Shown here piece after piece: positions 5,671 through 57,269 of a DNA stretch of 64,000 nucleotides (positions are counted from its first letter, which is position 1; each line of letters begins with the position of its first letter). The stretch comes from Medicago truncatula (taxonomy: Eukaryota; Streptophyta; Magnoliopsida; Fabales; Fabaceae). The position numbers and the translations under genes are program-made. The notes beneath the pieces were generated by a model that was given only the letters and a program-made list of their open reading frames with translations, did not search any database and was not told the origin of the DNA. The stretch lies in NCBI RefSeq assembly GCF_003473485.1, contig NC_053043.1, positions 18,664,001 through 18,728,000 of the forward strand. Reading direction: 5' to 3'.

Positions 5671-6015
5671 GACTTTGTTTGGGAGTTTTGTTTTGGCGGG
5701 GCGTACTAAACCCACTACGTACCATACCATCGGGCGGCTCGCCTGAATGTCGAGTCTTTCTGCGCCGCCAACTCGACGAGGAGGGGAGGGTTTTGAAAAA
5801 AAAGGAAGAAGCAAGTAGAAGAAATTGAAGACATTGGGAGGAGATGACTTTGAAGGTTAATTTTTTACTCATAATAAAAAATCTCCCTCATTTGATGGAA
5901 CTCAAAAATTCTCTAAAAAACTGTTGTTTTAAAAAATGTGAATATTTTATCCATTTTTCTATATATTTCCAACCCCCAAAACCCTCCCTTCCCCTCCATA
6001 CTCCCAAACGGATCC
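5671..6015. mobile_element. PIF/Harbinger (Tourist-like) MITE, 345 bp
   Basis: The left end GACTTTGTTTGGGAG pairs with the right end, whose reverse complement is GGATCCGTTTGGGAG. The element is flanked on both sides by TTA (5668-5670 and 6016-6018), the 3-bp target duplication of this superfamily. G-rich (GGGGAGGG) and C-rich (CCTCCC) inner blocks are also inverted. A related copy lies at 33830-34163. It supplies the false in-frame 5' extension of the PPR reading frame. Confidence 0.75.
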
Positions 6016-6311
6016 TTAAGGTGGGAGAGTTAGGTAATTTTGCCTCACATTTCATCCAATTATTTTATGTAAAAAAAAAAAAACTCATTCGGATCGAGAG
6101 ACATGGCTCAACCATTTTCACCACCGGTCGCCACTCCTTGACCCGCCGCCTTAAACCTGCCGTGCACCGCCGCGCACAGCCGTCCTGCAGCCACCACCAT
6201 CCCTCTCACCGCCAGATACAATCACAGGGTACTGACAGTGTTGTTACCATTTGGTTCTGTTCTGAAAGAAACATAACCAAATCTTCATCAAACTCAAATT
6301 TTCTTGATTTC

Positions 6312-8117
6312 ATGAAACCCAAAAACCACATATTTAACCACCCAACACTCCAAACATTACAACAAAAATGCAACAATTTCAATACCCTTAAACAAATACA
6401 CACCCAAATAATAACAACTGGTCTATCATTTCAAACATATTGTCTTAGTCACTTAATTAAGATATCCTCTAAATTTAACTTACCCTATGCTTTCAAAATC
6501 TTTAATTATATCTCAAACCCAACAATTTTCCTCTACAATACACTCATTTCATCTTTGATTAATCAAACTAATCAAAATCAAATCCATTTAGCATTCTCAC
6601 TTTATAATAAAATTCTCACAAACAAAAATCTTCAACCTAATAGTTTCACTTTTCCCTCACTTTTCAAAGCTTGTTGTTCTAACCAATCATGGTTTCATTA
6701 TGGTCCATTACTTCATACCCATGTTTTGAAATTTCTTCAACCACCTTTTGATAATTTTGTTCAAGCTTCATTGCTTAATTTTTATGCTAAATATGGGAAA
6801 ATGTGTGTGTCGAGATATATTTTTGATCGAATTAATGAACCTGATTTGGCTACGTGGAATGTTATTTTGAATGCTTATGCGCGTAGTTCGAGTTATCATA
6901 GTTACTCGAATAGTTTTGATGATGCTGATTTTTCGTTAGAGTCGTTGTATTTGTTTCGTGACATGCAAGTGATTGGAATAAGGCCTAATGAAGTTACGAT
7001 TGTTGCGTTGATTAGTGCTTGTTCTAATTTAGGTGCTGTTAGTCAAGGTTTTTGGGTTCATTGTTTTGTGTTAAGGAATAAGATTAAGATGAATAGGTTT
7101 GTGGGAACTGCATTCGTTGATATGTATTCGAAATGTGGATGTTTGAATCTTGCATGTCAAGTGTTTGATAAAATGCCTGAAAATGATAGGGATTCGTTTT
7201 GTTATACTGCAATGATTGGGGGTTTTGCTGTTCATGGTTATGGGAATCAAGCACTTGAACTTTATAGAAAGATGAAGTTTAAGGGTTTAGTTCCTGATAG
7301 TGCAACTTTTGTGGTTACGATGTTTGCTTGTTCGCATGTTGGATTAGTGGAAGAAGGGTTGGAGATTTTCAAATCCATGAAGGAGGTTCATGGGGTGGAA
7401 CCGAAACTCGAGCATTATGGATGCTTGATTGATCTTCTGGGTCGAGCCGGGCGATTAAAGGAGGCAGAGGAGTGGTTAGCAGATATGCCGATGAAACCAA
7501 ATGCGGTATTGTGGAGGTCTTTACTTGGTGCAGCAAGAATTCATGGTAATTTAGGTGTTGGAGAAGTTGCTCTCACAAAGTTAATAGAGTTGGAACCAGA
7601 AACTAGTGGAAATTACGTGCTTTTGTCGAATATGTATGCTAGTGTTGGTAGAGTGAATGATGTTAAGAGAGTGAGGAAGCTAATGAAACATCATGGTGTT
7701 AACAAGTTGCCGGGTTTTAGCTTAGTGGAAATAAAGGGTGCAATGCATGAGTTTCTTACAGGTGACAGAAGTCATCCATTTTCAAAGGAGATATATTTGA
7801 AGATCGCGGAGATTAATAGTAGACTTGAAGAATATGGTCACAAGGCAAGAACATCAGAGGCTCTGTTCGATCTAGAAGAAGAGGATAAGGAAGGTGTACT
7901 CTCTTACCATAGTGAAAGATTAGCCATAGCATTTGCTCTTATAGCATCTCCTTCAAGTTTAGCTATAAGAATTATTAAAAACCTTAGAGTTTGTGGGGAT
8001 TGTCATGCGTTCACCAAGCTAATATCAGTGGCATATCATAGAGAAATCATAGTTAGAGATCGAAATCGGTTTCATCATTTTAAAGACGGGAGTTGCTCTT
8101 GTCTAGATTACTGGTGA
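6312..8117 (+). CDS. DYW-class PPR protein, probable organellar RNA-editing factor
   Basis: A single-exon 601-residue PLS-type pentatricopeptide repeat protein. The N-terminus carries LKQIHTQIITTG, followed by degenerate P/L/S repeats (for example FLYNTLISSL, PDLATWNVIL, ALISACSNLGA, GTAFVDMYSKCGCL, LEHYGCLIDLLGRAGRL). E/E+ domains (about 430-510) and a complete DYW deaminase domain follow. The deaminase zinc signature is present: HSERLA (about 533) and CGDCH (about 561), with the terminal DGSCSCLDYW. Such proteins bind organellar RNA and direct C-to-U editing in mitochondria or plastids. By memory it is closest to Arabidopsis At5g43790, which to my recollection ends before a DYW domain. The frame is open back to 5844, but 5844-6015 is MITE, so I chose the ATG at 6312. 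Intron-less structure is usual for the family. Confidence 0.9.
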   Translation: MKPKNHIFNHPTLQTLQQKCNNFNTLKQIHTQIITTGLSFQTYCLSHLIKISSKFNLPYAFKIFNYISNPTIFLYNTLISSLINQTNQNQIHLAFSLYNKILTNKNLQPNSFTFPSLFKACCSNQSWFHYGPLLHTHVLKFLQPPFDNFVQASLLNFYAKYGKMCVSRYIFDRINEPDLATWNVILNAYARSSSYHSYSNSFDDADFSLESLYLFRDMQVIGIRPNEVTIVALISACSNLGAVSQGFWVHCFVLRNKIKMNRFVGTAFVDMYSKCGCLNLACQVFDKMPENDRDSFCYTAMIGGFAVHGYGNQALELYRKMKFKGLVPDSATFVVTMFACSHVGLVEEGLEIFKSMKEVHGVEPKLEHYGCLIDLLGRAGRLKEAEEWLADMPMKPNAVLWRSLLGAARIHGNLGVGEVALTKLIELEPETSGNYVLLSNMYASVGRVNDVKRVRKLMKHHGVNKLPGFSLVEIKGAMHEFLTGDRSHPFSKEIYLKIAEINSRLEEYGHKARTSEALFDLEEEDKEGVLSYHSERLAIAFALIASPSSLAIRIIKNLRVCGDCHAFTKLISVAYHREIIVRDRNRFHHFKDGSCSCLDYW

Positions 8118-24831: not shown

Positions 24832-26874
24832 CAGGGCCGTTCCTAGAGTTTTACAGGCCTTAGGCATAGTATGAAAAAAGGGCCCTTTGTATTACATCAT
24901 TTTTTTTCTTCTTCTGATAAATGATGAATGAGACATGTATTAGTTATAGTGGTTGACATGCCAGCTATGCTTTGTAGATCCCGAAAACACTGAATATAAG
25001 CGCTGAATAACTCCAAAGAAAGAAATAGCCTTACTATCTTGCATCTCACATGATCTTGCATTACCAAATCAAATTCCGCAATCATTTCAATTAATCCAAG
25101 AAAATTACCATTACTATCTTGACTTAATTTTTCTTTGGATCCTCGAAATGCAAGATCATTCTTAGCAAGACATTTCACAACTGAAACTATTCTACGTAAA
25201 ACTAGTCTCCAACGCTCTTTCTCTTTCACAATTTCTTCTTGCAAGTGTCTATCAATTGTCTGATTTTTATCAAATCTCATTCTCAATTCATTCCAAGTAT
25301 TCATATTAGTCATATGTTCGACACCATTTTCATGTTGTTTGAGTCTTTGACTAATATGCTTCCAATCATTTAAACCCTCGGTTGCAAGTAAACTCAAGTT
25401 ACTAGAGGTAGAAGATTTAAACAATTTACAACAAAAACAATATACTTTGTCAACATGTTTGCAATAAACTAGCCACTTTCGATCACTAATCTCACCATTA
25501 CTTAATTTTCTTGAATAATTCGCATATGAGAAATGCCTAGAGTATTTGTCATTGGGAAAATTAAGATTCATTTCTCGAATAGGTCCCTTTTCAACTAGAA
25601 TATCCCTTGAGGTGTTATCAAGATTCTCCCAATTTGTTGGATCATAAATATCAAAATGAGGATCATCACCAAAATTTTCAATATTATATGCATTTGGCAC
25701 ATCATTAGGAACATTTGAATTATCATCAATTTCCTCATTTTCATTTTCATGATCCAAATTTTCATTGTTGTTGTTTTTCAAATTTGGCACATCATTAGGA
25801 ACATTTTCTTGGGTATCTACCTTTTTGAAAACAAATTTATCAAGAGCTCCTTGTTGTGATTTTATTAGCTCTTCATTTCGTTTTTTTTTTTTTTTTCGTT
25901 TTTCACTACCAGACAAATGTTTTTTAGGCAACATCTTTAAATAAATCAGATACTCAATATAAACCAATACAAACAAACAAACAAAAAAGAAAAACCATAT
26001 TAGTACCAGTAGTAAGTGAAGTAGAGAGCAATAGCACCTTAAAATAGACCGAAGTTTTAACACCTGAAAATAAAAGTGCAACAAAAAAAAAGAAATATAT
26101 CAACACTTAATTAAGCAAAAATCAAGAATTGAATTGAAAAAAAAAAATACAAAAATCACGTGTACAGTGTACAAACAATTAATTAAAAAAAAATATCAAA
26201 AATAAAAAATGACTGTTATATGTACAGTACGTGAAGAGAATTCTTAAATCAATATCATGCTATATGCTTTTAAGCTTTTTGGTGTACAGTACAAATCATG
26301 TTATATGGAAAAATAAAAAATTCAATTGGAAAAAACATAAATCATTCAATTAGAATTTTAAAATTCAACACCTGAAACAATTAGATAATTGAAACAATGA
26401 TTATCAAAGAGAATTGGAATAAGAAAAAAAACATAATTAGAATTCAACACTTGAAGCAATTAGAGAATCGAAACAACATTATCAAATAGAATTGGAATAA
26501 GAAAGAAAAAAAAAAAAAACCTAAAACAATTCACCTGGAGAGAAGAACTGATTTTGGAACTTTTGGTTTTTCTTTTTAGGTTTCTTTTTTCATCTGTCTT
26601 TCTAATTGCTCAAAAGAAGTTTTTGTTTGTGTGTTAGTTGGGCCAATTCCATTATTTTCCTCTTTATTGGGCCTTTCCACTTTTTTTTTCTGTTTTATTC
26701 CTAATGGGCCCAAAAATTGATTCAGAATTAGGCCTGCTGTTACGAATTACTATACGCACCTCACTTTTTCCTTAGCTTTGCTATATACACCCCCCTGTAA
26801 AAAAAATTTAGGGCCCCCTACGAGCATGGGCCCTAGGCCGTCGCACTCGCGGCCTATGCCTAGGGCCGGCCCTG
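24832..26874. mobile_element. hAT-superfamily DNA transposon, 2043 bp, internally deleted
   Basis: The terminal inverted repeats read CAGGGCCGTTCCTAG at the left and, reverse-complemented, CAGGGCCGGCCCTAGG at the right. A perfect 8-bp duplication GTAGGGGG (24824-24831 and 26875-26882) flanks the element. The TIR sequence and the encoded TTF-type zinc finger identify the ZMYM1/TTF branch of hAT. Full-length relatives are longer, so this copy has lost much of its transposase. Confidence 0.93.
24897..25934 (-). pseudogene. Truncated hAT transposase (TTF zinc finger, ZMYM1-like)
   Basis: I start at the minus-strand ATG 25934 (MLPKKHLSGSEKRKKK), which matches the usual start of this family; a further 50 codons upstream are open but unlike it. 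A basic N-terminal tract and Asn/Glu-rich linker precede the TTF zinc finger: DPTNWENLDN, FSYANYSRKLSNGE, RKWLVY and CFCCKLF, then GLNDWKHISQRLKQHE and the ETI-like QTIDRHLQEEIVKEKERWR. After FRGSKEKL the DUF4371 catalytic part stops quickly, and the C-terminal hAT dimerisation region is absent. About 345 residues remain against roughly 700-800 in full members, so it is inactive. Confidence 0.85.
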
Positions 26875-30100: not shown

Positions 30101-32600
30101 AAGGTAATTAATAAAACCCTATTAATTTTATCTTTATTATTTCATCTATATATTCAAATATCAATCACTAACATTTTCTTTTTCTTTTTCTAATGATAGA
30201 CTTGATATTAATCAAAAGGATCCAGTTTGGACAAATAATACAATTCTAAGGATTAATGGCACTGGACATGTAATTCATGCATTTGTCAATGGAGAACATA
30301 TTGGTAATGTGACACATGCTATTTAAATTACACTCATGGTTGATTAACATTATGTTAACATTAAATCATTGTCAAATTATTCATTTAATGATATACATAG
30401 GTTCTCATTGGGCTACATATGGCATTCACAATGATCAATTTGAGACTAACATTAAGTTGAAGCATGGCAGGAATGATATCAGTCTTCTTAGTGTCACTGT
30501 TGGACTTCAGGTATCAAAATTATAATTATTCAAAAGCACTCATTTTGGTTACTATTATTGTAATTAATATATGTGTATTTTGTGGATAATAGAATTATGG
30601 AAAAGAATATGATAAATGGCAAGATGGTCTTGTTAGTCCTATTGAATTGATTGGTACAAAAGGTGATGAGACAATCATCAAAGATTTGTCATCACACAAG
30701 TGGACATACAAAGTTGGGTTGCATGGTTGGGAAAACAAATTTTTTAGTCAAGATACATTCTTTGCTTCTTCTTCCAAATGGGAATCTAACGAACTACCTA
30801 TTAACAAGATGTTAACTTGGTACAAGGTAAATCAATTCATTTTTCTTCTATAGTTGTGTTTAATGTTATCTTTTTACAATTTAAACTTACCTAAATTTTG
30901 TAAGAGTTTAATTATTTGTAAGCTCTTTTATACATTCATATTTAACTAAATTTTTTAAGAGTTTAATTACTTGTAAAGCTATTCTACACAAGCATATTTA
31001 ACTAAATTTTTTAAGAGTTTAATTACCTCATACACTTGTAGTGTAAAGTGATTTTACACATGCATCCAATAATGTGTTATCACGTCAATTAATGAATATG
31101 ACTATTCATTTGTTTTTATATGTGTAAAATAATTGTACACCGTCACCACATAGTAATTAAATTCATTTTTAATCCATGTGCTATGTTATAATTGGTGAAT
31201 AAACAACATCTAGGTTTTATATATTTTTTACTATTAGTTTAAAAGGTTAAATATATTTTTAGTCCCTGTAAATATGTCAACTTTTCGTTTTAGTCCCTCT
31301 AAAATTTTCCTTCAACTTTTAGTCCCTATAAAATTTTCAATTTTCACTTGTGGTCCCTCTTTTAAAGTAAACTCATATGTAGAATTCATATTTTTTAATA
31401 AAATTTTCCAGAAAAATTCAAAATATTATAAGAATCACTACAAAAAATTTTGTAGAATTTCTTAACAAAAAAAAAAATTAATATGAATTTTTATATTTTT
31501 TACGGTTAAAAATTCATATTTAATTTGTACTTTGTTAAAAAATTCTAATTTTTTTTAAGAATGTTTTTTTAGAATATTTTACACATTTCTGCACATTTAT
31601 TAAAAAATAAAAAAATTAAATTAAAAATAGGGACCAAAAGTAGTGATTGAAAATTTTATAGGGACTAAAAATTGAAGGAAAATTTTAGAGGGACTAAAAC
31701 GAAAAACTGACATATTTATAGGGACCAAAAACATATTTAACCCTAGTTTAAAATTGTTACTAATTAGTTTGTTTGTTTATAATTTTTAGACCACTTTCAA
31801 AGCTCCACTAGAATCAGACCCTATAGTTGTTGATTTGCAAGGTATGGGAAAAGGTTATGCTTGGGTGAATGGTCACTCTCTTGGTCGTTACTGGCCTAGT
31901 TATAATGCAGATGAAGATGGTTGTAGTGATGATCCTTGTGATTACCGTGGTGAATATAATGATACAAAATGTGTTAGCAATTGTGGCAAACCCTCACAAA
32001 GATGGTTAGTTAACATGCTCAATTAATTACTATTTTAATTCAAGATTATAATAATAATATGAAATGTGTGACAATTAAAATATATATGTTACTTTGAATA
32101 ATTTAGGTACCATGTCCCTCGTGACTTTATTGAAGATGGTGTGAACACATTGGTTTTGTTTGAGGAAATTGGTGGTAACCCTTCACAAATAAATTTCCAA
32201 ACAGTTATTGTTGGAAGTGCTTGTGCAAATGCTTATGAAAATAAAACTTTGGAATTATCATGCCATGGTCGGTCCATTTCGGATATAAAGTTTGCAAGTT
32301 TTGGCAATCCACAAGGTACATGTGGAGCATTCACTAAGGGTAGTTGTGAAAGTAATAATGAAGCTTTGTCTCTTGTACAAAAAGTAAGTTTTTGCTTAAT
32401 TTTATTACTTGCTATTTCAAGATTATTTTATACTATAATAGTATATGATGATGATTAATTAACTTTGTTTTTTGGGTTTTATATAGGCATGTGTTGGCAA
32501 GGAATCATGCTCAATTGATGTTTCAGAAAAAACATTTGGGGCAACTAATTGTGGAAATATGGTCAAGAGGCTTGCAGTGGAGGCAGTTTGTGCTATTTAG
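27119..32600 (+). CDS. Beta-galactosidase, GH35 family with SUEL lectin domain
   Basis: Seventeen phase-consistent exons: 27119-27286, 27384-27592, 27685-27751, 28043-28135, 28225-28368, 28650-28738, 28855-28960, 29058-29145, 29235-29353, 29463-29624, 29910-30103, 30200-30303, 30401-30510, 30593-30826, 31790-32004, 32107-32383 and 32487-32600, giving 830 residues. A signal peptide (about 1-24, [15 protein letters not shown]) points to secretion into the cell wall. GH35 motifs: [27 protein letters not shown] (proton donor E183) and MWTENWVGW (nucleophile E252). Lectin-like beta domains follow, then a C-terminal SUEL/galactose-binding lectin domain with paired Cys (about 740-830). It should release terminal beta-galactose from wall galactans, arabinogalactan or xyloglucan. 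By memory it is nearest Arabidopsis BGAL7/BGAL15. All exons read open, so it appears functional. Confidence 0.95.
31244..31743. mobile_element. Mutator-type MITE in beta-galactosidase intron 14, 500 bp
   Basis: About 100 bp at each end form an inverted repeat built of AGTCCCTNTAAA words (left AGGTTAAATATATTTTTAGT, right mirror GGGTTAAATATGTTTTTGGT). A perfect 9-bp duplication TAGTTTAAA flanks it (31235-31243 and 31744-31752). It makes this the longest intron of the gene without touching splice sites. Confidence 0.92.
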
Positions 32601-34166: not shown

Positions 34167-37100
34167 ATTCGCCCCGTAACTTCTCAAACTAAGTTGCATT
34201 CAAAGCCTTAGTAAATATGTCTGTCAGTTGCTTCTCAGTGGCCACAATATGCTCAAGAGTAACAATTTTGTCCTCAACAAGATCCCTAATGAAATGATGA
34301 CGAATGTCAATATGCTTTTTCCTTCTATGTTGAATGAGATTCTTGGATATATTAATTGCATTCAGATTATCACAATATTATGTCATGACATTTTGTTCGA
34401 CATTATATTCCTTTAGCATTTGTTTCATCCAAATCAATTGAGAGCAACTGCTTCTTGCTACAATATACTCAGGCTCAAATGTAGACAAGGACACACATTT
34501 TTGGTTCTTGTTGAACCAAGGGATCGATTGTTTCCTAAGAAGAAACATCCTCCAGAAGTGCTTTTTCTATCATCAGCACTACCTGCCCAATCTGCATCAC
34601 CGCAGACTTTACCCTCCATTTTTTGCATGTAGCATGACTCTAGCTGATTCTTGTAAAGTTCTATTTTTGAGTTCTACAACTCCATTTTGCAGAGGAGTGA
34701 TGGGTGATGAGAATTCATGACCAATACCTTTAGAAGATAAAAATTCATAGAATTTGGCATTTTCAAATTCCTTGCCATGGTCACTTCTGATTCTAACAAT
34801 CAAATTTTTCTGCTCCCTTTGAAGGCGTTGACAAAGATCTTTGAAAACCTCAAAAGTATATGATTTTTCTTTGATAAAGTTCACTCAAGTAAATCTTGAA
34901 AAATCATCAACAACCATATATATATATCTTTCCACCAAGACTTTCAACTTGCATTGGCCCCATTAAATCCATATGAAGAAGTTCTAGGACATTTGAAGTA
35001 GTCTGATTTTGAAACTTTGGGTCTGACATCTTGATTTGCTTCCCAATTCGACAATCACCACAGACTTTACCCTCCTCAATTTTGAGCATTGGTAGACCTT
35101 TAATAGCTTCTTCAGACATAATATTCTTCATACCTTTAAGATTCAGATGTCCAAGCTTCTGGTACCACAGCTTCACGTCATCTTCTTTGGACATTAAACA
35201 TGTGGAAGAATAAGTAGTTTTTTGAGGTACCCACAAATAGTAGTTGTCTTTAGATCTTACTCCTCTCATCAGAACATCATTCTTCTCATTAGAAACCGAA
35301 CATTCTGACTTGGTGAAATTTAATTTTAAACCTTGATCACATAATTGACTAATACTGACCAGATTTGCAATCAATCCTTTCACAAGAAGAACATCATCAA
35401 GTCTATGAAGTCCAGTACAAACTAACTTTCCTACTCCCTTTCACCTTTGGCTACATCATCAAACGTGACAAAACTGGTGGAATAAGACTTAATGTTCATT
35501 AAATACTTCTTGACCTCTATCATATGTCTAGAGCATCCACTGTTAAAGTATCAGTCTTCTCTAGATGAAGCTCTAAGAGATGTATGGGCTATAAGACTAG
35601 TATCAAAAACCTTAGGTTTCCACTCTTTTCTAGTTTTAATCATCACATTGTTTAGTATAGTGGTATGTAATAATGAGGCTTTATATGACCATATTTACCA
35701 CAATAATGACATTTCCAAGGCAAGAACTTGGCTTTAATTTGAGTTTCATGATGTCTAGTAGGATGTTGTAACATTTTGTCTGACATCGTGAGCTCATACT
35801 TACTTTCAGAAGGAATAAATTTTGTCATATGGGTTTTTCCTTGTTTATTTAGAGATTGGTAATTAAAACCCTATACCTTTTAAGTTTTCAGCCCCTTTCC
35901 CAACTTAAAGAATTTCATCTAACATAGAAGACCCATTTTTCAATATTCTTATGGATTTGGTCATGTTTTCAAGTTTAGAAGACAATAGGGTTACCTCATT
36001 TGAAGACCAGAGATAGTAGATAAAATTTTATCTTTTTCAGCATGCAGTTGAGCTATGATTCTCTTCTGCTTTTCTCATATCTTACAAACCTCTTCACTTC
36101 TGGCACAAAGTTCTTTGTAGGAATCAACCAATTCATCATAAGAGATATCCTCATCACATGAATCTTCATTGGATTCACATCTACCAATGAAGGTTGTAAC
36201 ATGCTTAGAAGTTTCATCATCAGGTTCATCGTCAGAGCCAGAAACATACAAGCCCTTCTTTTATTTCTTAAGATACGTGGGACATTATGATCCAATGTGT
36301 CCAAAACCTTCACACTGGTGACACTAAATACCTTTTCCTTGATTGGGATTCTCCTTAGTTCTTGCTTTTCTCTGAAAATCATTGTTCTTACTAATGTCGA
36401 ATGACATGTTCTTGACATTTGGTCTTGGCTTCCTATCCATTCTCTTCAGCACCTTATTGAATTGCTTCCTAAGAAGCAAAATAGCCTCAGAAATTCCTTC
36501 ATTAGACTTCATGTCACATTGAACCTCTTCATTATTAGTATTGGAGACAAAAGTTATGCTCTTCTTCTTCTTTTCAGATCTATCACTGATAGCCAATTCA
36601 AAAGTTTGAAGTGACCCAACAAGCTCATCCACTTTCATGTTGCAAATATCTTGGGATTCTTCAATAGTTGCGACCTTCATGTCAAACTTCTTAGGCAACG
36701 ACCTGAGGATTTTTATAACCAGCTTCTCCTCTAACATCCTTTCTCCCGAGGCACTATTTGTGTTGGCAATGTCAAGAATATTCATGTGAAAATCATGAAT
36801 GGACTCATCATCTTTCATCCTGAGATTCTCAAATTTGATGGTGATAAGTTGAAGTCTTGACATCCTACTTTTGATATGCCTTGAGGAGTGGTTCTGAGGA
36901 TTTCTCATGCATCTTTGATCACGGTACATGTATTTCTTAACCTGAACATATTTTTGTCAACCCCAATGAACAAGGCGTTCAAAGCTTTGGAGTTTCCAAG
37001 AGCAAGTTCATCTTCTTCCTTAGACCAGTCTTCTTCTGGATTTAATTCAGTTGTGTAATTTCCATATTTGTCCTTCACCATATGATCTTCCTAACCTTTG

Positions 37101-39906: not shown

Positions 39907-40125
39907 GGATGTGTTTGGTTGTGAGAAGAAAGTGAACAGAGAGAGATAGATGAGAGAGAGTATGGGAAGAGAGAAGAAATCAAAAAGTGGTAGGGACCAC
40001 ATATATCCTTTCTCTCTTGAGCATCTCACTGCACTGCCAAACACGAGAAATTGCTTATTTCTTTGCAATCTCTCTCTCTCATACTTACTTCTCTCGTCCC
40101 TAACTCTCTCCTTCCAACTACAATG
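39907..40125. mobile_element. PIF/Harbinger-type MITE, 219 bp (unit A)
   Basis: GGATGTGTTTGGTTGTGAG on the left mirrors CCTTCCAACTACAATG on the right. TTA target duplications lie at 39904-39906 and 40126-40128. The interior is rich in AGAGAGA/TCTCTCT, with a central GTAGGGACCACATATAT. The unit-B copy of this locus preserves the empty site, confirming the borders. Confidence 0.8.
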
Positions 40126-40249
40126 TTAACTTTTTTACTGTGTATATAAATATTTTTTATTTAATTTTATACTAATCTAGTTTTATCTTATAAAAAATTA
40201 TATATAGATTAATATTATCATTTCTTATCATTTTATGATAAAAAATAAC

Positions 40250-40365
40250 TTCTTTAGTTGATAGCTTAGTGGTTAGATCTTATCATTTTAGTTCCACGGT
40301 ACATAGTTCAAATCTCTCTAGATATCACCTGTAAAATTTTCATTGGTTCTAAAAGTTAGTGTTCC
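40250..40365 (+). repeat. tRNA-like SINE fragment (unit A)
   Basis: An A-box-like GATAGCTTAGTGGTTAGA and a B-box-like AGTTCAAATCTC about 50 bp apart. Cognate copies exist in unit B (44792-44905) and unit C (46010-46120), so insertion predates the duplication. Confidence 0.5.
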
Positions 40366-41591
40366 TCATTGAAAAGTTTAAGAGTGGGAAAAGATAAATG
40401 AATAAGGAAAACTAAATATGGATGAAGGTAGCGTGACAAGAAGAGGGGAAAAATGTAGAAAAGAATAAAGGTGGAGTGATGTCATGCTGGGAAAAAGAAA
40501 AAGGTTAAAAGTGGCTCCAAAAACCACCGTCCCTATAGAAAAGGACGAATATGGGGAAAAAGTAAATAAAAAAAAAAACAGAAACACGGATAAACATAAC
40601 AAGAAAAGGGAACAAGTTGTTGAAAGAAAAAAAAGTGGCCTGTTGCCATGATGAGAAGAGAGAAAAGGTTAAACGTTGCTTCAAAAACCAACCTCCTACC
40701 ACAAAAGGTTGAAATTGCACCACTGGAACAGAATAAAGGTAGTGTCATGCAACAATGAGAAAAGGGAAAAGGACGATGTTTTTTGTTATAGTTTCTTAAA
40801 CTACAGGGGGCGTAGATGACAAGTTACTAAAACGAGTCCAACACTTTAAAAATGGGTCTCACATTAAGTATAAGACTCAAATAAATTTAATGTTTAAAAA
40901 TAATGAGTGTTTGAGTGAGTATTGAAAAGAGAGTGATGATAACATTTCTCTTAAAAATAAATCCCTCCCTGGCATAATGTGTTATCTATTTGAATATTTA
41001 ATAAAAATTAAATAAAAAGTTTATCTGAAAGATAGATAATGATATTATTACTAAATTATAACCTAATAAATTATTTGTCTAGTCATTATTATTATTATCA
41101 TAAGTGAGAAATGGACGATGTTTATTTGAGTGTTATGAAAATAATATTAATTAGAGGGCACAATTAGGAAAAATGTAATTAATCATGCACTCAAAATCTT
41201 CTTGAAAAATAAAAAATAATGCATTGAAAATTTAAAGGGTTATTTCTTTTTAGACAAAATATTTTAACAAATTGGTCACTTGTTATGGAATTGAGGGAGT
41301 AACTTTTCTAAATTACCTATCATATAAAACTCTGGTCATTATTGTAAGCAAAAGATTACCTTTTTTGGTTCATAGAAGAACTGATTCATCTAGTCTACAT
41401 TGTTCACCACATGAATAAAATATTCAATGAACAAATAAAGTAAATTTTTACTTATAATAGTGACCAGAGGGTGTACTTATTAAACTACTTTTTTATTAAC
41501 TGAAAAGCTTTCACATCACATAGCTTTCTGGTGTATATAAATACATCGTTTGGGTTTGAGTTATGTATTCATCATTTTAAAAACACAAACA

Positions 41592-44178
<2,587 letters not shown>

Positions 44179-44589
44179 CGACCATGTTATATTTTTATCA
44201 AAAAATAAATAAAGTATCATTGAGTATTCAATTATGATGCTCTCTAAGTCTATTGTTGTTCTTTTTTTTTTTTACGCAAGTAGTTGTTGATGTTTATTTA
44301 TTAATAATTCAATATTAAATAAAGATAATTTAAAACATAATTGAATGTTGAGGCGATGATGATAAAATAATTCATGTGGAACTAATTTATCTTGATTTAA
44401 TTGGATATTATTTATAATGAAAATTAGTTATAATTTAGTGGTTCTAAGAACCATTTTAGAGTTTTTAAAAAATATATATTATTAACCTATCCTATAGGTC
44501 TAAAACCATCTTAAGCATGATGCATAATTCAACATAGACCCCTTAATAAATAAAAAAATGACCATACAATACCTTAACAAATGGGTTAT

Positions 44590-45166: not shown

Positions 45167-45915
45167 GGGTGTTTTGGTTGTTGGAAGAAAGTGAGAAGAG
45201 AGAGATAGGTGAGAGAGTATGGGAAGAGAGAAATAGATGAGAAATAGAGTAGATTTGATGGGTTGTTTGGTGTAAGAGAATGAAGAGAGAAAGGGGAGAG
45301 AAAGAGATGCTACTATTTTTTTAAAAGACAAAAATATCCTTCAATAAAATCAACATATAATTTATGATTAATTAATTTTTTTTTTGTAAAGATTAAATTA
45401 ATTTATTATCCAATTTAATTTAATCTATTAACTAACTATTATTTCCACTAAAAATACTATTATTTTTATATTAGCTCAATATTGATATCTATAAAAAATT
45501 AAAAAAGCATTTGGTTTTTCACTATCAATTAAACAATTTACTTAATTTTAATTTTTTTTTAAAACATTTTTGTTTTTAATTTGGGCACAAGCCAGTAAAA
45601 ATATATCTTAACTTAAAAAACCACAATATGACAGATTTGTGCTCATATCTCCAATGAACTTCAACCATCAGTGTAGTGAAGAAACAGTACCTAAGGATAA
45701 GGGTATATATGAAAAGTGAAGAAAAATATATGTTTCTCTCTTCTTTCTTCGCTCATGTGAGAAGAAAGCAAAAAGTGGTAGGGACCACATATATTTTATC
45801 TCTCTTGAGCATCTCACCGCAGTGCCAAACACGAGAAATTGCTTTTTTCGTTGCAATCTCTCTCTCTCTCTCTCATACTTCTCTCATCCCTAACTCTTTC
45901 CTTCCAAACACAGTG
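45167..45915. mobile_element. PIF/Harbinger-type MITE, 749 bp (unit C)
   Basis: Same ends as the unit-A copy (left GGGTGTTTTGGTTGTTGG, right CCTTCCAAACACAGTG) with TTA at 45164-45166 and 45916-45918. It is 530 bp longer because of extra AT-rich interior at about 45240-45765, so A is probably the internally deleted form. Confidence 0.75.
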
Positions 45916-46319
45916 TTAACTTTTTATTGTGTATATAAATATTTTTTATTTAATCTTATACTAATTAATATTATCATTTCTTATCATTTTATGATAAAAA
46001 AAAAAAATTCTTTAGTTGATAACTTAGTGGTTAGATCTTATCCTTTTAGTTCCACGGTACATAGTTCAAATCTCTCTAGAGACCTGTAAAATTTTCAGTG
46101 GTTCTAAAAGTTAGTGTTCCTCAATGAAAAGTTCAAGAGTGGGGAAAGATAAATGAATAAGGAAAACTAAATATGGATGAAGGTAGAGTGACAAGAAGAG
46201 GGATAAAATGTAGAAAAGAATAAAGCTAGAGTGATGTCATGCTCAGAAAAAGGAAAGGGTTAAAAGTGCCTCGAAAAAAACCACCGCCCCTATAGAAAAG
46301 GACGAATACGAGGAAAAAG

Positions 46320-47346
46320 AAAATTAAAAAAAAAAAAAACAGAAACACGGATAAACATAACAAGAAAAGGGAACAAGTTCTTGAAAGAAATAAAAGTGGC
46401 CTGTTGCCATGATGAGAAGAGAGAAAAGGTTAAACGTTGCTTCAAAAACCAACCTCCTACCACAAAAGGTTGAAATTGCACCACTGGAACAGAATAAAGG
46501 TAGTGTCATGCAACAACGAGAAACGGGAAAAGGACGATGTTTTTTGTTATAGTTTCTACAGGGGGCGTAGATGACAAGTTACTAATACGAGTCCAACACT
46601 TTAAAAATGGATCCCACATTAAGTATAAGACTCATACAAATTTAATGCTTAAAAATAATGAGTGTTTGAGTGAGTATTGAAAAGAGAGTGATGATAACAT
46701 TTCTCTTAAAAATAAATCTCTCCCTGGCATAATGTGTTATCTATTTGAATATTTAATAAAAATTAATAAAAAGTTTATCTTGAAAGATAGATAATGATAT
46801 TATTACTAAATTATAACCTAATAAATTATTTATCTAGTCATTATTATTATTATCATAAGTGAGAAATGGACGATGTTTATTTGAGTGTTATGAAAATAAT
46901 ATTAATTAGAGGGCACAATTAGGAAAAATGTAATTAATCATGCACTCAAAACCTTCTTGAAAAATAAAAAATAATGCATTGAAAATTTAAAGGGTTATTT
47001 CTTTTTAGACAAAATATTTTAACAAATTGGTCACTTGTTATGGAATTGAGGGAGTAACTTTTCTAAATTACCTATCATATAAAACTCTGGTCATTATTGT
47101 AAGCAAAAGATTACCTTTTTTGGTTCATAGAAGAACTGATTCATCTAGTCTACATTGTTCCCCACATGAATAAAATATTCACCGAACAAATAAAGTAAAA
47201 TTTTACTTATAATAGTGATCAGAGGGTGTACTTATTAAACTACTTTTTTATTAACTGAAAAGCTTTCACATCACATAACTTTCTGGTGTATATAAATACA
47301 TCGTTTGGGTTTGAGTTATGTATTCATCATTTTAAAAACACAAACA
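46320..47346. promoter_or_regulatory. Shared promoter region of subtilase C (mirrors 40560-41591)
   Basis: Nearly identical to the same region of unit A, with small indels. A TATA-like GTGTATATAAATACATC lies at about 47286-47302, some 50 bp before the ATG at 47347 (unit A equivalent 41531-41547). No coding is present; minus-strand open frames here are chance. Confidence 0.55.
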
Positions 47347-49678
47347 ATGGCCAAGCATAATGTTGTTTTATCATTCCTTGTTTCTTTATATTTGACATCA
47401 CTAATTCGCTTGGTGTGTGATGCCACTAAAACTGGAGATGAAAGCAGTAAACTTCACATTGTGTACATGGGTTCACTTCCAAAGGAAGCCTCATATTCCC
47501 CAAGATCTCATCATCTCAGCTTGTTGCAACATGTCATGGATGGTAGTGACATAGAAAATCTCTTGGTTCGAAGTTACAAGAGAAGTTTCAATGGTTTTGC
47601 TGCCGTACTCAACGATTAATAAAGGGAATAACTTGTTCGCATGAGAGGTGTGGTCTCAGTTTTTCCAAGCCAAGAGTTTCACCTTCAAACCACAAGGTTT
47701 GGGACTTCCTCAGTCATTCAAAAGAGATCAAACTATTGACAGTAGTTTGGTGATTGTAGTCATGGATACCAGAATATGGCTAGAATCTGAAAGTTTCAAT
47801 TATAAAGGTATAAAATATATATATATTTTTTATAACAATCCCAATATTATATGTTATAATTGTCATACATATTTTTTCTAAATGATTTTCATATCTTTGA
47901 AATACTTAACTTGCTTAAAATGATAGATAATTAATTAATTTCAATAAAAATTTTATTATTATTTTTAATTAATTTCCTCTTATGCGTAGATTTAATTAAT
48001 TTCCTCTTATGTGTAGATTTAATAATAATGTAGTAACCTACTATATATGATGATCTTGTTAATTTGATTTTTTTTATTTTTATTTTTATAATTGATCAGG
48101 TCTTGGTTCGATTCCAAAAAAGTGGAGGGGAGTTTGTGTTGGTGGTGGTAATTTTAGTTGCAACAAGAAGATCTTCGGAGCACGATTTTACGGTGTTGGA
48201 GATGTGAGTGCAAGAGACAAATCTGGTCATGGAATCCACACAACATCCATAGCAGGTGGAGTTGACGTCATCACTATCTCTCTTGATGCCCCTAATGTCA
48301 CTGATTTTTTGAGTGATTCTATCGCCATTGGTTCTTTTCATGCCATGGAGAAGGGAATACTCACAGTGCAGTCTGCAAGAAATGCTAGCCCTATCTCAAG
48401 TAGTGTTTGTAGTGCATCACCTTGGTTATTTACTGTTGCCGCAACTACCATAGATCGAAAATTCATTGATAAGATCATTCTTGGAAATGGACAAACATTT
48501 ATTGGGAAGTCAATTAATACCATACCTTCAAATGGCACAAAATTTCCAATAGATGTGCATAATGCTCAAGCTTGCCCAGCTGGAGGAAATGCATCCCCTG
48601 AAAAGTGTGATTGCATGGACAAAAAGATGGTGAATGGTAAGCTTGTTTTGTGTGGATCTCCAATCGGTGAAATGTTAACTTATACAAGTGGTGCAATTGG
48701 TGTAATCCTTTATGCATCACAATCTGATTTCGATGCTTCATTTGTCACTAAGAACCCTACACTTAGGTTGGAATCAAAAGACTTTGTTCATGTTCAATAT
48801 TACAAAAATTCCATTAATTACCTGTAGCTGAAATTTTAAAGAGTGAAATCTTCCATGACACCAGTGCTCCAAGAATAGCCATTTTCTATTCTCGTGGCCC
48901 AAATCCTTTGGTTCAAGAAATTATGAAACCAGATATAAGTGCCCCTGGAGTAGAAATCTTGGCTGCATATTCACCTTTAGTGTCACCCTCAATGGATCCG
49001 AGTGACAAAAGAAAGGTTAACTACAACATATTATCTAGAACCTCTATGTCTTGCCCTGATGCTGCTGGAGTTGCTGGATATGTGAAATCATTTCATCCAG
49101 ATTGGTCACCTGCAGCTATCAAATCTGCTATCATGACAACTGCTACACCAGTGAAACGTACTTATGATGATATGGCAGGTGAGTTTGCTTATGGATCAGG
49201 AAATATCAATCCAAAACAAGCCATTCACCCTGTACTTGTTTATGACATTACTAAGCAAGATTATGTGCAAATGCTCTGTAATTATGGTTACAGTGCTGAA
49301 AAAATTAAACAAATTAGTGGAGATAATTCAAGTTGTCATGGAACTTCTGAAAGATTATTGGTGAAAGATATAAATTATCCTACTATTGTGGTTCCAATAC
49401 TTAAGCATTTCCATGCGAAGGTTCGTAGAACAGTTACAAATGTTGGCTTTCCCAACTCAACCTACAAGGCAACTCTCATCCATCGTAATCCAGAAATCAA
49501 GATAAGTGGGGAACCAGAAGTACTATCCTTCAAATCGTTAAACGAGGAACAATCCTTTGCTGTCAGTGTTGTTGCTGGAGAAAAATCAAATCAAACTTTG
49601 TTTTCCTCCTCCCTTGTTTGGTCAGATGGTACCCACAATGTCAAGAGTCCCATCATTGTGCAAATAATATCTCTATAG
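47347..49678 (+). pseudogene. Cucumisin-type subtilase gene C, broken
   Basis: It starts with an intact signal peptide (MAKHNVVLSFLVSLYLTSLI) and I9 propeptide, then has a double stop in LND-stop-stop. An 11-nt deletion near 47697 follows, then an in-frame 53-codon deletion near 48258 and a 1-nt loss near 48823. Active-site neighbourhoods are also altered: VMDTRIW for DTG, GHGIHTTS, and SRTSMSCPDAAG for SGTSMSCPHAAG. From 48908 to the stop at 49678 the frame is open for 256 residues, covering the Ser region and fibronectin-like tail. None of its coding-disrupting lesions is shared with unit A, so the two copies decayed independently after duplication. Non-functional as a protease. Confidence 0.9.
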
Positions 49679-49831
49679 TCGACCATGTTATATTTTTATG
49701 AAAAACTAAATAAAGTATCATTGAGTATTCAATTATGATGCTCTCTAAGTCTAGAGTTGTTCTTTTTTTTTTTTTTTTTTACGCAAGTAGTTGTTCATGT
49801 TTATTTATTAATAATCCAATATTAAATAAAC

Positions 49832-53571: not shown

Positions 53572-54565
53572 GTAGTTCTTCTCATGGAGAGGCTGAGCCT
53601 TTTGACTATGACAAGGAATCCAAATAGACCTTTGAACTCAACGTTCTAAACTTATGATCAAATCAAACAATTTTTCAAGATCTTTATCTCTTTCAATACT
53701 AAGGAAATAACTCGTATTAAACAAACAGTTTCTACTTTAAAAGTGGCAATAAAAAAATAAGGATAAAAATGGTCAGTTTCTACTTTAAAGATTTGCATTA
53801 AAATAGTTTGTTTGAAAGAAGTTAAAGGTTATAACAAACGTAACTTACAAATTTAATTATTATCTAATCATTCCTTAACCACAAAAGTTGTTTAGCTTAC
53901 AATGAACTTGAACACAAAAATAAAAATAAAAAGACAATAAATAAAAACACAATTGCATAAATAAAAAAAAAGATATTAAAGTTTACAAAAGAGAAATTGC
54001 AATGCAATAAGGATTGTGGTAAGTTCTATGCATCACTCACTTAACAACTTACTCTTATGAGTGTAAAACTCTAAGATCTAGCTACAATGCTTTCAAGGTG
54101 TAATGGATGAAGGTATGAAATGAAGAAAAGTGATTTGAATCTGTAAAATGGTGGTTAGCATTGATTAAAGGTTTAACTTCACCTTCATCAATGGTTTAAC
54201 TTTTTTTGACCACAATATACTTGTTTACCTTTTCACTTGGATGAGGAGGAGACAAGTAAACAAGTATAATAGAAGAAGAAGAAAATAAATAGATAAATAA
54301 ATAATACATGGTTGAGAAGAGTAGATAATAAAAAGACAAGATAGTGAAATCAAGGGGCTTTGTATAGTCACTATTTTGGAACTTGAACCACTAAGTTAGT
54401 CTATTTAAAGTCCTTTGCAGCTCATCACTTTGCTGTACTAGTTAAGTAGCTTTCTTGGATCTGTGCATGCACACTCTACTTCTACTACCTCACTCTACCA
54501 CCTTCATATTATTTTCATTTTATTTTAGCTAGCTAGAAGATCCTCCATTACCAATTCACTACAAA
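53572..54565. other. Upstream region of the LAZY-like gene
   Basis: The left part (to about 54000) continues LTR-like noncoding text. The right part, including CTCTACTTCTACTACCTCAC, is probably promoter and 5' UTR. No single regulatory motif is certain. Confidence 0.35.
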
Positions 54566-57190
54566 ATGAATGTAAGGATATTTACTTTTGTCATATTAAT
54601 TGTTTCATTTTTTTTTTTGACAATAATTGTTTGACATTACATTTATATATCATTATTCATTGCTAATTAGTTTTTATTTTACTTATATCTGATTTTATTT
54701 GCAGATCTTTAAATGGATGCAAAATAGGCTTAATGGCACCAATGGGAAAATGAAACCTAGCTCTATTTCAGCTACTCGTAAGCATCAGTCTCCAATCACA
54801 CCAAAATCCTCAACATATATTTACAAATTAACTGCTTATATTATACACTTTGTTTCTATATGCACATATATACTACATAATGATAAAAAAAAAAAAAAAA
54901 AAAAAAAAAGTACTATTATCTACAGAGTTAAGAACACAATAATGCTCACGGCCAAGAATAAAGTAATGTTTAAATATATAGAATTAAGGTTCTGTATTGA
55001 ACTATTTAATTTTTCAAAAAGATAAAAGAAAATAACATTTACAAATAATACTTGAAATATTTTGCTCATTATGTCATACTAACATATGCCCTAAGGACTC
55101 GTGTGCTAAAGAAATCAAAAGTAAAACTATCAAAGACCAAATTTTAAAGATAGATTTCTTAACATGTGCACATGACATACGTTAGCGTTTCCCTTATCTA
55201 TATTAATATTGCACCCTCTTGAAGCCAAATCAGTGTGAAATGATGATTAACTTTCTTTTTTATGTTTTTGTTTTTTTTATTATTTCAACAGATCATATGC
55301 TGAATGAGACTTATAAACAAGAATTCAGTGATTGGGATCATGCAATACTTGCAATTGGAACACTTGGGAATAACAATTTGAATGAAAATTCAAATAAAAG
55401 TATTGATGAAGAGGATTCACACTCCTTTCAAGATTTCACACATGAGTTCTCTTTTGAAGAAGTTGGGAATTTTCAGAATGAATTGAAAATGAATTTGGAA
55501 GAGAGTGGTAATTTCTATCCAAGCAACAATTTAATATGCAATAGGGGAAGAAAGAGTTTGGATAAAAGTAATAAGAATGAAGTTTCTAATCAATCACTTT
55601 CTTTCCTTCTTAAGAAGATTTTTGTGTGTGGAGGTGAATTGCCACCTACATCTGTGTTCAAAGATCCACTCTCTACAGAGTCTAGAATGGAAAAGGTAAG
55701 TGAAAAGCCATGAAAGCTTTTGTTTTCTCATCTTATTGAATACTCCATAAAATTCTTTTTAACCCCTCTCTCACCCCTTTTTATCTTTTATCAAAAAAGA
55801 TGGAGAGAAAGAGGTTACAAAGAAACAATTGTATATAAACCCAAAAAAATATTTTGTATCTTTTTCATTTGTGGTGTCTGAGGTTTGAACCCCAAACCTT
55901 GCATATATTATGCATTGTATCTAAATCATATAAAAATAGGATGTTAGATGTTATGAATCATGGAATCATTAGGAAGAAGGTCATAATCATCAGCAAGAAA
56001 GCAAGCATAAGAGTACTCATGTGGGAGATATTTACAAAAACTCATTATAGAAATGAATAGATTGATAAAAGTATAATGATTGAGTACAATAGAGTGAAGT
56101 ATTTATAGGAGTGAGTTGGAGTAACTAACTACTTAACCAACTTGGTAACTCTAGTTAACCTATCATCTAACTATAGTTTATTCAATATACTGTAATATTA
56201 GACATCATTTTTACGTCCTCATAATATTTCTCTTATATTTACTAGCGTTCTGCTCTTTATAGGTATAGATCTTTTGCACTTTTATATTGTAACAACTATA
56301 TTTATTTTTTTTCAATGACACCAACAATATAACAAATATAATATAAGTTCATATCTTTTTAAATAAAATCGACATTCTAACAATTTTGTAGATAAATTTA
56401 TTTTAGAGTATAATTGAAAATCAAAAGGTCACTTTAAAACCATGTATTTCATTTAAATAAAATATAGATGTATAGATGATTGACTGATTATTGATTTGGT
56501 TGTCAATTGTGATTACAGATTCTAAGGGCAATACTTCACAAAAAAATACATCCACATGGTTCATGTTCAACAACGTTTGTAAACAAGTACCTTGAAAACA
56601 ATTCAAAGCCCGAGTATGATTATGAAGATGAAGATGAAGATGAAGATGAATATGAATATGAGTATGAAGAGGAGCTTAAAAATAGTGTTGTGGAGAAAGG
56701 ATGCAAATGGGTCAAGACAAATTCCGAATGTAAGTTCTATCATTGATTTGTTTATTTATAGTATAGTATGGCATTCGTAATTTGTAAAAAAAAATATATA
56801 TATATATGCACTAAGTTGATAAATGAAATCTAACTTGAATCTTCTCCTGCCCCTTAAGTTCAACCGTCTCTCATTTTTTTAATCTAACGGTTGATTGATT
56901 TAAAAAGAAAACAAAAACAATAGAGAGATATTAGTGCAGGACATACATATATATATATATGAAGAAGGGCTAGATTTGATCCAAATTTGAGCTAGAAAAT
57001 GAGGTGATTTCACAATTTGTTTTTAGAATAAATTAATGAAATATACAATAATCTAACTATCTAATTTAAGAAATAAGAATAATCTAATTATAGCACACAA
57101 TCATCCTCTAAAAAAATATCTTCTCGATTTTTTTTATATAACTAATACATTTCAATTTCTGTGGTTGCAGATATCGTTCTTGAGATATAA
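54566..57190 (+). CDS. LAZY/DRO1 (IGT) family gravitropism protein
   Basis: Five phase-consistent exons: 54566-54571 (only ATGAAT), 54705-54777, 55292-55695, 56519-56729 and 57171-57190, giving 237 residues. Diagnostic motifs occur in family order: N-terminal IFKWMQNRLNG, the IGT box EFSDWDHAILAIGTLG (about 37-52), a central FLLKKIFVCGG with a following PTSVFKDPL, conserved ILRAILHKKIHPHGS (about 162) and the C-terminal KWVKTNSEYIVLEI, which acts as the conserved C-terminal peptide of LAZY proteins. The tiny first and last exons match the known family gene structure. These proteins act in columella/endodermal cells downstream of statolith settling and upstream of auxin flow to set root or shoot growth angle. 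The length fits the LAZY2-4/DRO1/NGR clade; which member cannot be told. Confidence 0.93.
56617..56676 (+). repeat. Coding GATGAA/TATGAA hexamer repeat in LAZY exon 4
   Basis: A run of GAT/TAT-GAA codon pairs encodes an acidic Asp-Glu then Tyr-Glu stretch of about 20 residues (DYEDEDE then YEYEYEEE). It sits between the ILHKKIHP block and the C-terminal KWVKT block, a variable linker in this family. Such repeats change length easily. Confidence 0.8.

Positions 57191-57210: not shown

Positions 57211-57269
<59 letters not shown>
57211..57269. repeat. (TA)n microsatellite in LAZY 3' UTR
   Basis: About 29 TA units starting 20 bp after the LAZY stop codon, so it is likely transcribed. Confidence 0.9.

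Follow-up and report, generated by a model that had tools for sequence, protein, structure and literature searches.

A five-exon IGT/LAZY-family gene, probably DRO1-like, in Medicago truncatula

The gene found at positions 54566..57190 on the forward strand of a 64-kb stretch of Medicago truncatula DNA (the whole of which is called here the window) is almost certainly a member of the IGT/LAZY family, which takes part in setting the growth angle of roots and shoots, and it is probable that membership of this family, placement in its DRO1-like (LAZY2/3/4, NGR) clade and a working state all hold together. A previous sequence-only reading had identified an IGT-family gene at this position, and the structure, motifs and exon sizes agree with published descriptions of IGT/LAZY genes. 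According to PMC9702816 (section 3.4), these genes have five exons, the first of six nucleotides and the last of about 20 nt; the same hallmark is described in PMC12150781, where ATGAAG is given as a common first exon. The present gene shows this layout, with exons of 6, 73, 404, 211 and 20 nt (Table 1). In peanut, another legume, five exons are reported for all LAZY-like and DRO-like genes except LAZY1-1, which has three (PMC10663514), and most of 17 DRO1-like orthologues are likewise five-exon genes, with ATGAAG as the first exon in all but Oropetium (PMC6448822). Further background on the family is provided by PMC7170825, PMC8513883, PMC9409014, PMC10888659 and PMC10823791.

Gene structure and protein layout

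The five exons are separated by introns of 133, 514, 823 and 441 nt in phases 0, 1, 0 and 1, all four of which show GT-AG ends, with gtaagg, gtaagc, gtaagt and gtaagt as successive donors. Each of the junctions proposed beforehand (54571/54705, 54777/55292, 55695/56519 and 56729/57171) proved to be exact to the nucleotide. The joined coding sequence of 714 nt is divisible by three and encodes 237 residues followed by TAA, with no internal stop, whereas all three frames hold stops in each of the four introns; the description of the gene as intact is borne out only at the level of open frame and splice sites. It had also been remarked that the longest single frame covers only the middle exon. 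Consistent with this, among the open reading frames of at least 120 codons in the window, a single one lies within the gene, at 55219-55713 (164 aa), and it spans exon 3 alone among the exons. Read-through at donor 1 would yield MNVRIFTFVILIV..., and read-through at donor 4 would yield CKFYH and a stop in place of YIVLEI. Upstream of the start codon, the stricter TATA[AT]A pattern has no match in 54201-54566. Downstream, a perfect (TA) array of 29.5 copies (57211-57269) starts 21 nt beyond the end of the stop codon and probably lies within the 3' untranslated region.

Table 1. Features of the gene model, in coordinates of the window
Feature	Position	Strand	Description
Candidate TATA-like TATTTAAAG	54402..54410	+	about 156 nt 5' of the ATG; seen by eye
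Exon 1	54566..54571	+	6 nt; ATGAAT (Met-Asn), then gtaagg donor
Exon 2	54705..54777	+	73 nt; remainder of the domain-I-like peptide MNIFKWMQNRLNG
Exon 3	55292..55695	+	404 nt; AILAIGT (domain II), then LSFLLKKIFVCGG and ESRMEK blocks, which we take to be domains III/IV
Exon 4	56519..56729	+	211 nt; ILRAILHKKIHPHGS block, acidic tract and KWVKTNSE
Exon 5	57171..57190	+	20 nt; last part of the Tyr codon, IVLEI, TAA

The joined protein begins with MNIFKWMQNRLNG, a sequence that includes the WMQNRL peptide and is formed only when exons 1 and 2 are spliced together. This peptide, a candidate domain I, occupies the far N-terminal place expected of that domain. The IGT motif follows at residues 44-52 (AILAIGTLG, of which AILAIGT is coded at 55342-55362) and retains the phi-L-A-I-G-T of the GphiL(A/T)IGT signature, its first G being replaced by A. 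Further along lie LSFLLKKIFVCGG (residues 129-141), ESRMEKILRAILHKKIHPHGS (residues 156-176), and an acidic tract of about 18 residues (about 196-213), coded by an in-frame array of ATGAAG-like hexamers (56622..56670, forward strand, about residues 196-212; 8.2 copies, 90% match). Because changes in length by whole units preserve the frame, this array may vary between individuals. The C-terminus KWVKTNSEYIVLEI (residues 224-237) corresponds to domain V, or CCL, with its EAR-like motif.

Two other positions depart from consensus: residue 2 is Asn (ATGAAT) rather than the Lys of an ATGAAG first exon, and WVKTN carries N at the D position of WxxTD. The protein starts with MN and has no Gly2, the residue needed for N-myristoylation, and its longest run of K/R is 2. 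Neither SP nor TP, the dipeptide sites preferred by MAPKs, occurs anywhere in the 237 residues. MAPK phosphorylation of LAZY proteins forms part of one published model of the gravity response (PMC10888659).

The C-terminal peptide and its predicted action

In Arabidopsis, the C-terminal peptide of LZY3 and the BRX domain of RLD2 associate with a KD of 9.7 nM, through a hydrophobic core formed by LZY3 residues Trp275, Ile283, Leu285 and Ile287 and through salt bridges made by Lys277 and Glu286; a mutant in both Trp275 and Leu285 neither recruits RLD1 nor complements (PMC6941992). When the two proteins are lined up from their C-termini, all six of these contact residues are identical in the Medicago protein (W225, K227, I233, L235, E236 and I237). 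Four of the six (I233, L235, E236 and I237) are coded by the 20-nt exon, and read-through would replace YIVLEI, so that the predicted mechanism could not operate without this exon. Overexpression in rice of DRO1 lacking exon 5 shortened the roots and reduced the number of lateral roots (PMC9487910).

In the mechanism that we propose by analogy with characterised relatives, the 237-residue protein would reside in gravity-sensing cells at the plasma membrane, on the lower side of the cell, where its C-terminal peptide, folded as a beta-hairpin, would recruit RLD/BRX-domain proteins. Recruitment of RLD would in turn steer PIN-dependent auxin flow (compare PMC7893674, section 9), which would set the growth angle of root or shoot. 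We infer in this way that the gene would be expressed, and that its product would be anchored at the membrane, bind RLD and affect organ angle.

The N-terminal peptide had been described beforehand as membrane-binding. This holds for AtLZY1/LAZY1 (PMC7893674, section 7), but NGR1 is a member of the DRO1 clade whose anchoring has been mapped to two internal tetrabasic stretches and Cys206, and in which the N-myristoylation site of LZY1 is stated not to be conserved (PMC10942638). With a longest basic run of two residues, against the two runs of four in NGR1, the anchoring of the Medicago protein is uncertain. Its cysteine C139, situated mid-protein, is a candidate equivalent of NGR1 Cys206.

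Clade assignment and alternative readings

The DRO1-like clade (AtLZY2, AtLZY3 and AtLZY4, also named NGR or DRO) is the most likely placement as judged from the predicted protein and exon layout. The features shared with this clade are the five exons with a six-nucleotide first and a last of about 20 nt, an IGT motif (apart from its first G), the C-terminal IVLEI, the six named LZY3 contact residues and a candidate counterpart of the middle cysteine; the comparison draws on features printed in the text of the papers and not on a sequence alignment. The present gene differs from the clade in having MN instead of MK, AILAIGT instead of GphiL(A/T)IGT and WVKTN instead of WxxTD, in carrying an acidic tract some 18 residues long, and in lacking a tetrabasic run and any SP or TP. 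The IVLEI end is described as the dicot DRO1-like form in PMC6448822, but rice DRO1 is also given IVLEI in PMC9487910, which makes this ending a weak mark of the clade; the two sources differ in how they word it.

The three consensus departures (K2N, the A for G in the IGT motif and the N for D in WxxTD), together with the missing SP/TP sites and basic runs, could also be read as signs of decay, in which case the gene would be an IGT paralogue, recently silenced or degenerating, that has kept an open frame by luck. Divergent legume copies do exist, such as MtLZY7, which matches AtLZY2 with an E value of 4.27e-9 (PMC7893674, Table 1). However, GT-AG ends in four of four introns, a frame held through five exons and retention of the six named RLD contact residues all speak against decay, and we regard this reading as unlikely. 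We rate just as low the probability of a divergent DRO1-clade paralogue that has retained the RLD-binding end and lost other controls. Were this the case, the losses would concern firm anchoring (basic runs and N-myristoylation) and MAPK control (SP/TP sites), a hairpin residue would have been changed (D to N), the hexamer-coded acidic tract would be expandable, and the protein would modulate the main LAZY proteins or compete with them, and would not itself drive the gravity response.

Slightly less probable again is membership of the LAZY1-like clade, with action mainly in shoots. All five conserved domains are held in that clade as well (PMC9702816), including the C-terminal EAR-like/CCL peptide, and IVLEI-type ends are not strictly clade-specific. 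Three characters nevertheless speak against this placement: the middle cysteine C139, of a kind that PMC10942638 states for NGR1 and describes as absent in LZY1; the MN start, which lacks the Gly2 of a predicted N-myristoylation site such as that of LZY1 (PMC10942638); and the IVLEI end itself, given as the dicot DRO1-like form.

TAC1 and LAZY5-like identities were also considered; the combination of an N-terminal peptide with an IGT motif and a domain V argues against both. TAC1 is described as lacking domain V (PMC7893674, section 12), which the present gene possesses, and in peanut it has four exons (PMC10663514) compared with five here; almond TAC1 shows natural Asp/Glu indels at residues 105-109 (PMC8513883), comparable to the repeat-coded acidic tract. 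LAZY5-like proteins share domains I and V with the Medicago protein and are described as having these two only (PMC9702816), whereas the IGT motif is also found here.

The gene model was further compared with chance expectation. If stop triplets were as frequent as in introns 2-4 (0.079), open stretches as long as those of exon 3 (134 codons) and exon 4 (70 codons) would have probabilities of about 1.5e-5 and 3e-3, respectively. In 100 random sequences of 64 kb each, generated by a first-order Markov model based on the window, the mean number of matches per sequence was 0 for domain I, 0.01 for the IGT pattern, 0 for WxKT[DN][SA] and 0.27 for xVLEx-stop; no sequence in the set contained all four patterns. 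The real window holds each of them once, in family order, on the same strand and within the gene. A fifth pattern, WxKT[DN] with the next Tyr, finds no contiguous match because intron 4 splits the Tyr codon. Because the patterns were composed with the sequence already in view and draw partly on prior knowledge of the family, these counts test plausibility and are not blind. Little information resides in the 6-nt exon by itself, for which support comes from its GTAAGG donor, the open frame gained and family precedent. An assembly of open stretches by chance, with no gene behind it, would find some footing in the AT-rich region with its abundant GT and AG dinucleotides and in the near absence of information in the 6-nt exon alone, but its probability is negligible in view of the random-sequence counts, of the stop-free exon 3 and of the agreement of motif order and exon sizes with the published family (PMC9702816).

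Database searches, surrounding sequence and annotation

A Pfam search with the protein returned a single match, sub-threshold and unrelated (E 0.27). Against PDB sequences the whole protein gave seven matches (best E 0.53) and its last 22 residues gave one (E 1.7), none of them meaningful; the LZY3 peptide of the published complex (residues 274-287) is shorter than the 20-residue limit of the PDB library used. Pattern matches in viral contigs (232) and prokaryote contigs (449) included none confirmed as a relative, as expected for a plant family. Since the collections searched (Pfam, PDB, viral and prokaryote) comprise no plant collection, these null results say little. A literature text search for four peptide strings matched no paper. 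Within the window, a tblastn search for a second copy recovered the three larger exons of the gene itself and three matches at E 4.4 to 7.9, and Rfam gave no match at gathering thresholds. The 25 longest of 122 inverted repeats near the gene consist mostly of AT or A/T runs, with no clear inserted element.

Several other features lie elsewhere in the window. A tandem duplication of several kb relates 39971-44323 to 45759-49830 (pieces 89-95% identical) and contains pieces of subtilase genes, with Peptidase_S8 matches in the open reading frames 42550-42978, 43268-43864 and 48908-49678; the open reading frame 48204-48827, within the duplicated copy, has no Pfam match. These pieces may be intron-containing genes or may be partly degenerate. 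Copia-type retrotransposon pieces with GAG-pre-integrase and Retrotran_gag_2 matches occupy 34907-36929 on the minus strand. On the same strand, a 395-codon open reading frame (24897-26084) has a weak DUF4371 match (E 9.2e-4, below the curated cut-off) and is a possible remnant of a hAT-type transposase. At 5844-8117, a 757-codon open reading frame encodes a PPR protein that also matches E, E+ and DYW deaminase; its translation probably begins at an inner Met. Each of the segments 31245-31742 and 8937-9260 matches its own reverse complement (about 76%) and is a possible foldback or MITE-like element. Finally, the open reading frame 1870-2277 carries an F-box domain (F-box-like, E 4.5e-10) and probably represents exon 1 of an F-box gene.

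The claim that automated callers lose both ends of such genes agrees with the literature, in which frequent misannotation of both tiny exons has already been reported (PMC9702816, PMC12150781). The expected domains were present in only 56 of 124 reference-database models, and in 33 of 96 from other Rosaceae (PMC9702816, section 3.4). PMC8831610, which documents misannotation of plant microexons in general, makes no mention of LAZY. As the tiny-exon structure and its misannotation are both in print, the fact that this gene is hidden by tiny exons adds no novelty: it is an ordinary addition to a known family, and leaves what is known of that family unchanged. The practical value of the finding lies in annotation, where both tiny exons must be included for the model to be correct: omitting the last removes the RLD-binding end of the protein, and omitting the first removes the start codon. 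For Medicago truncatula, the gene is a candidate for the control of root or branch angle.
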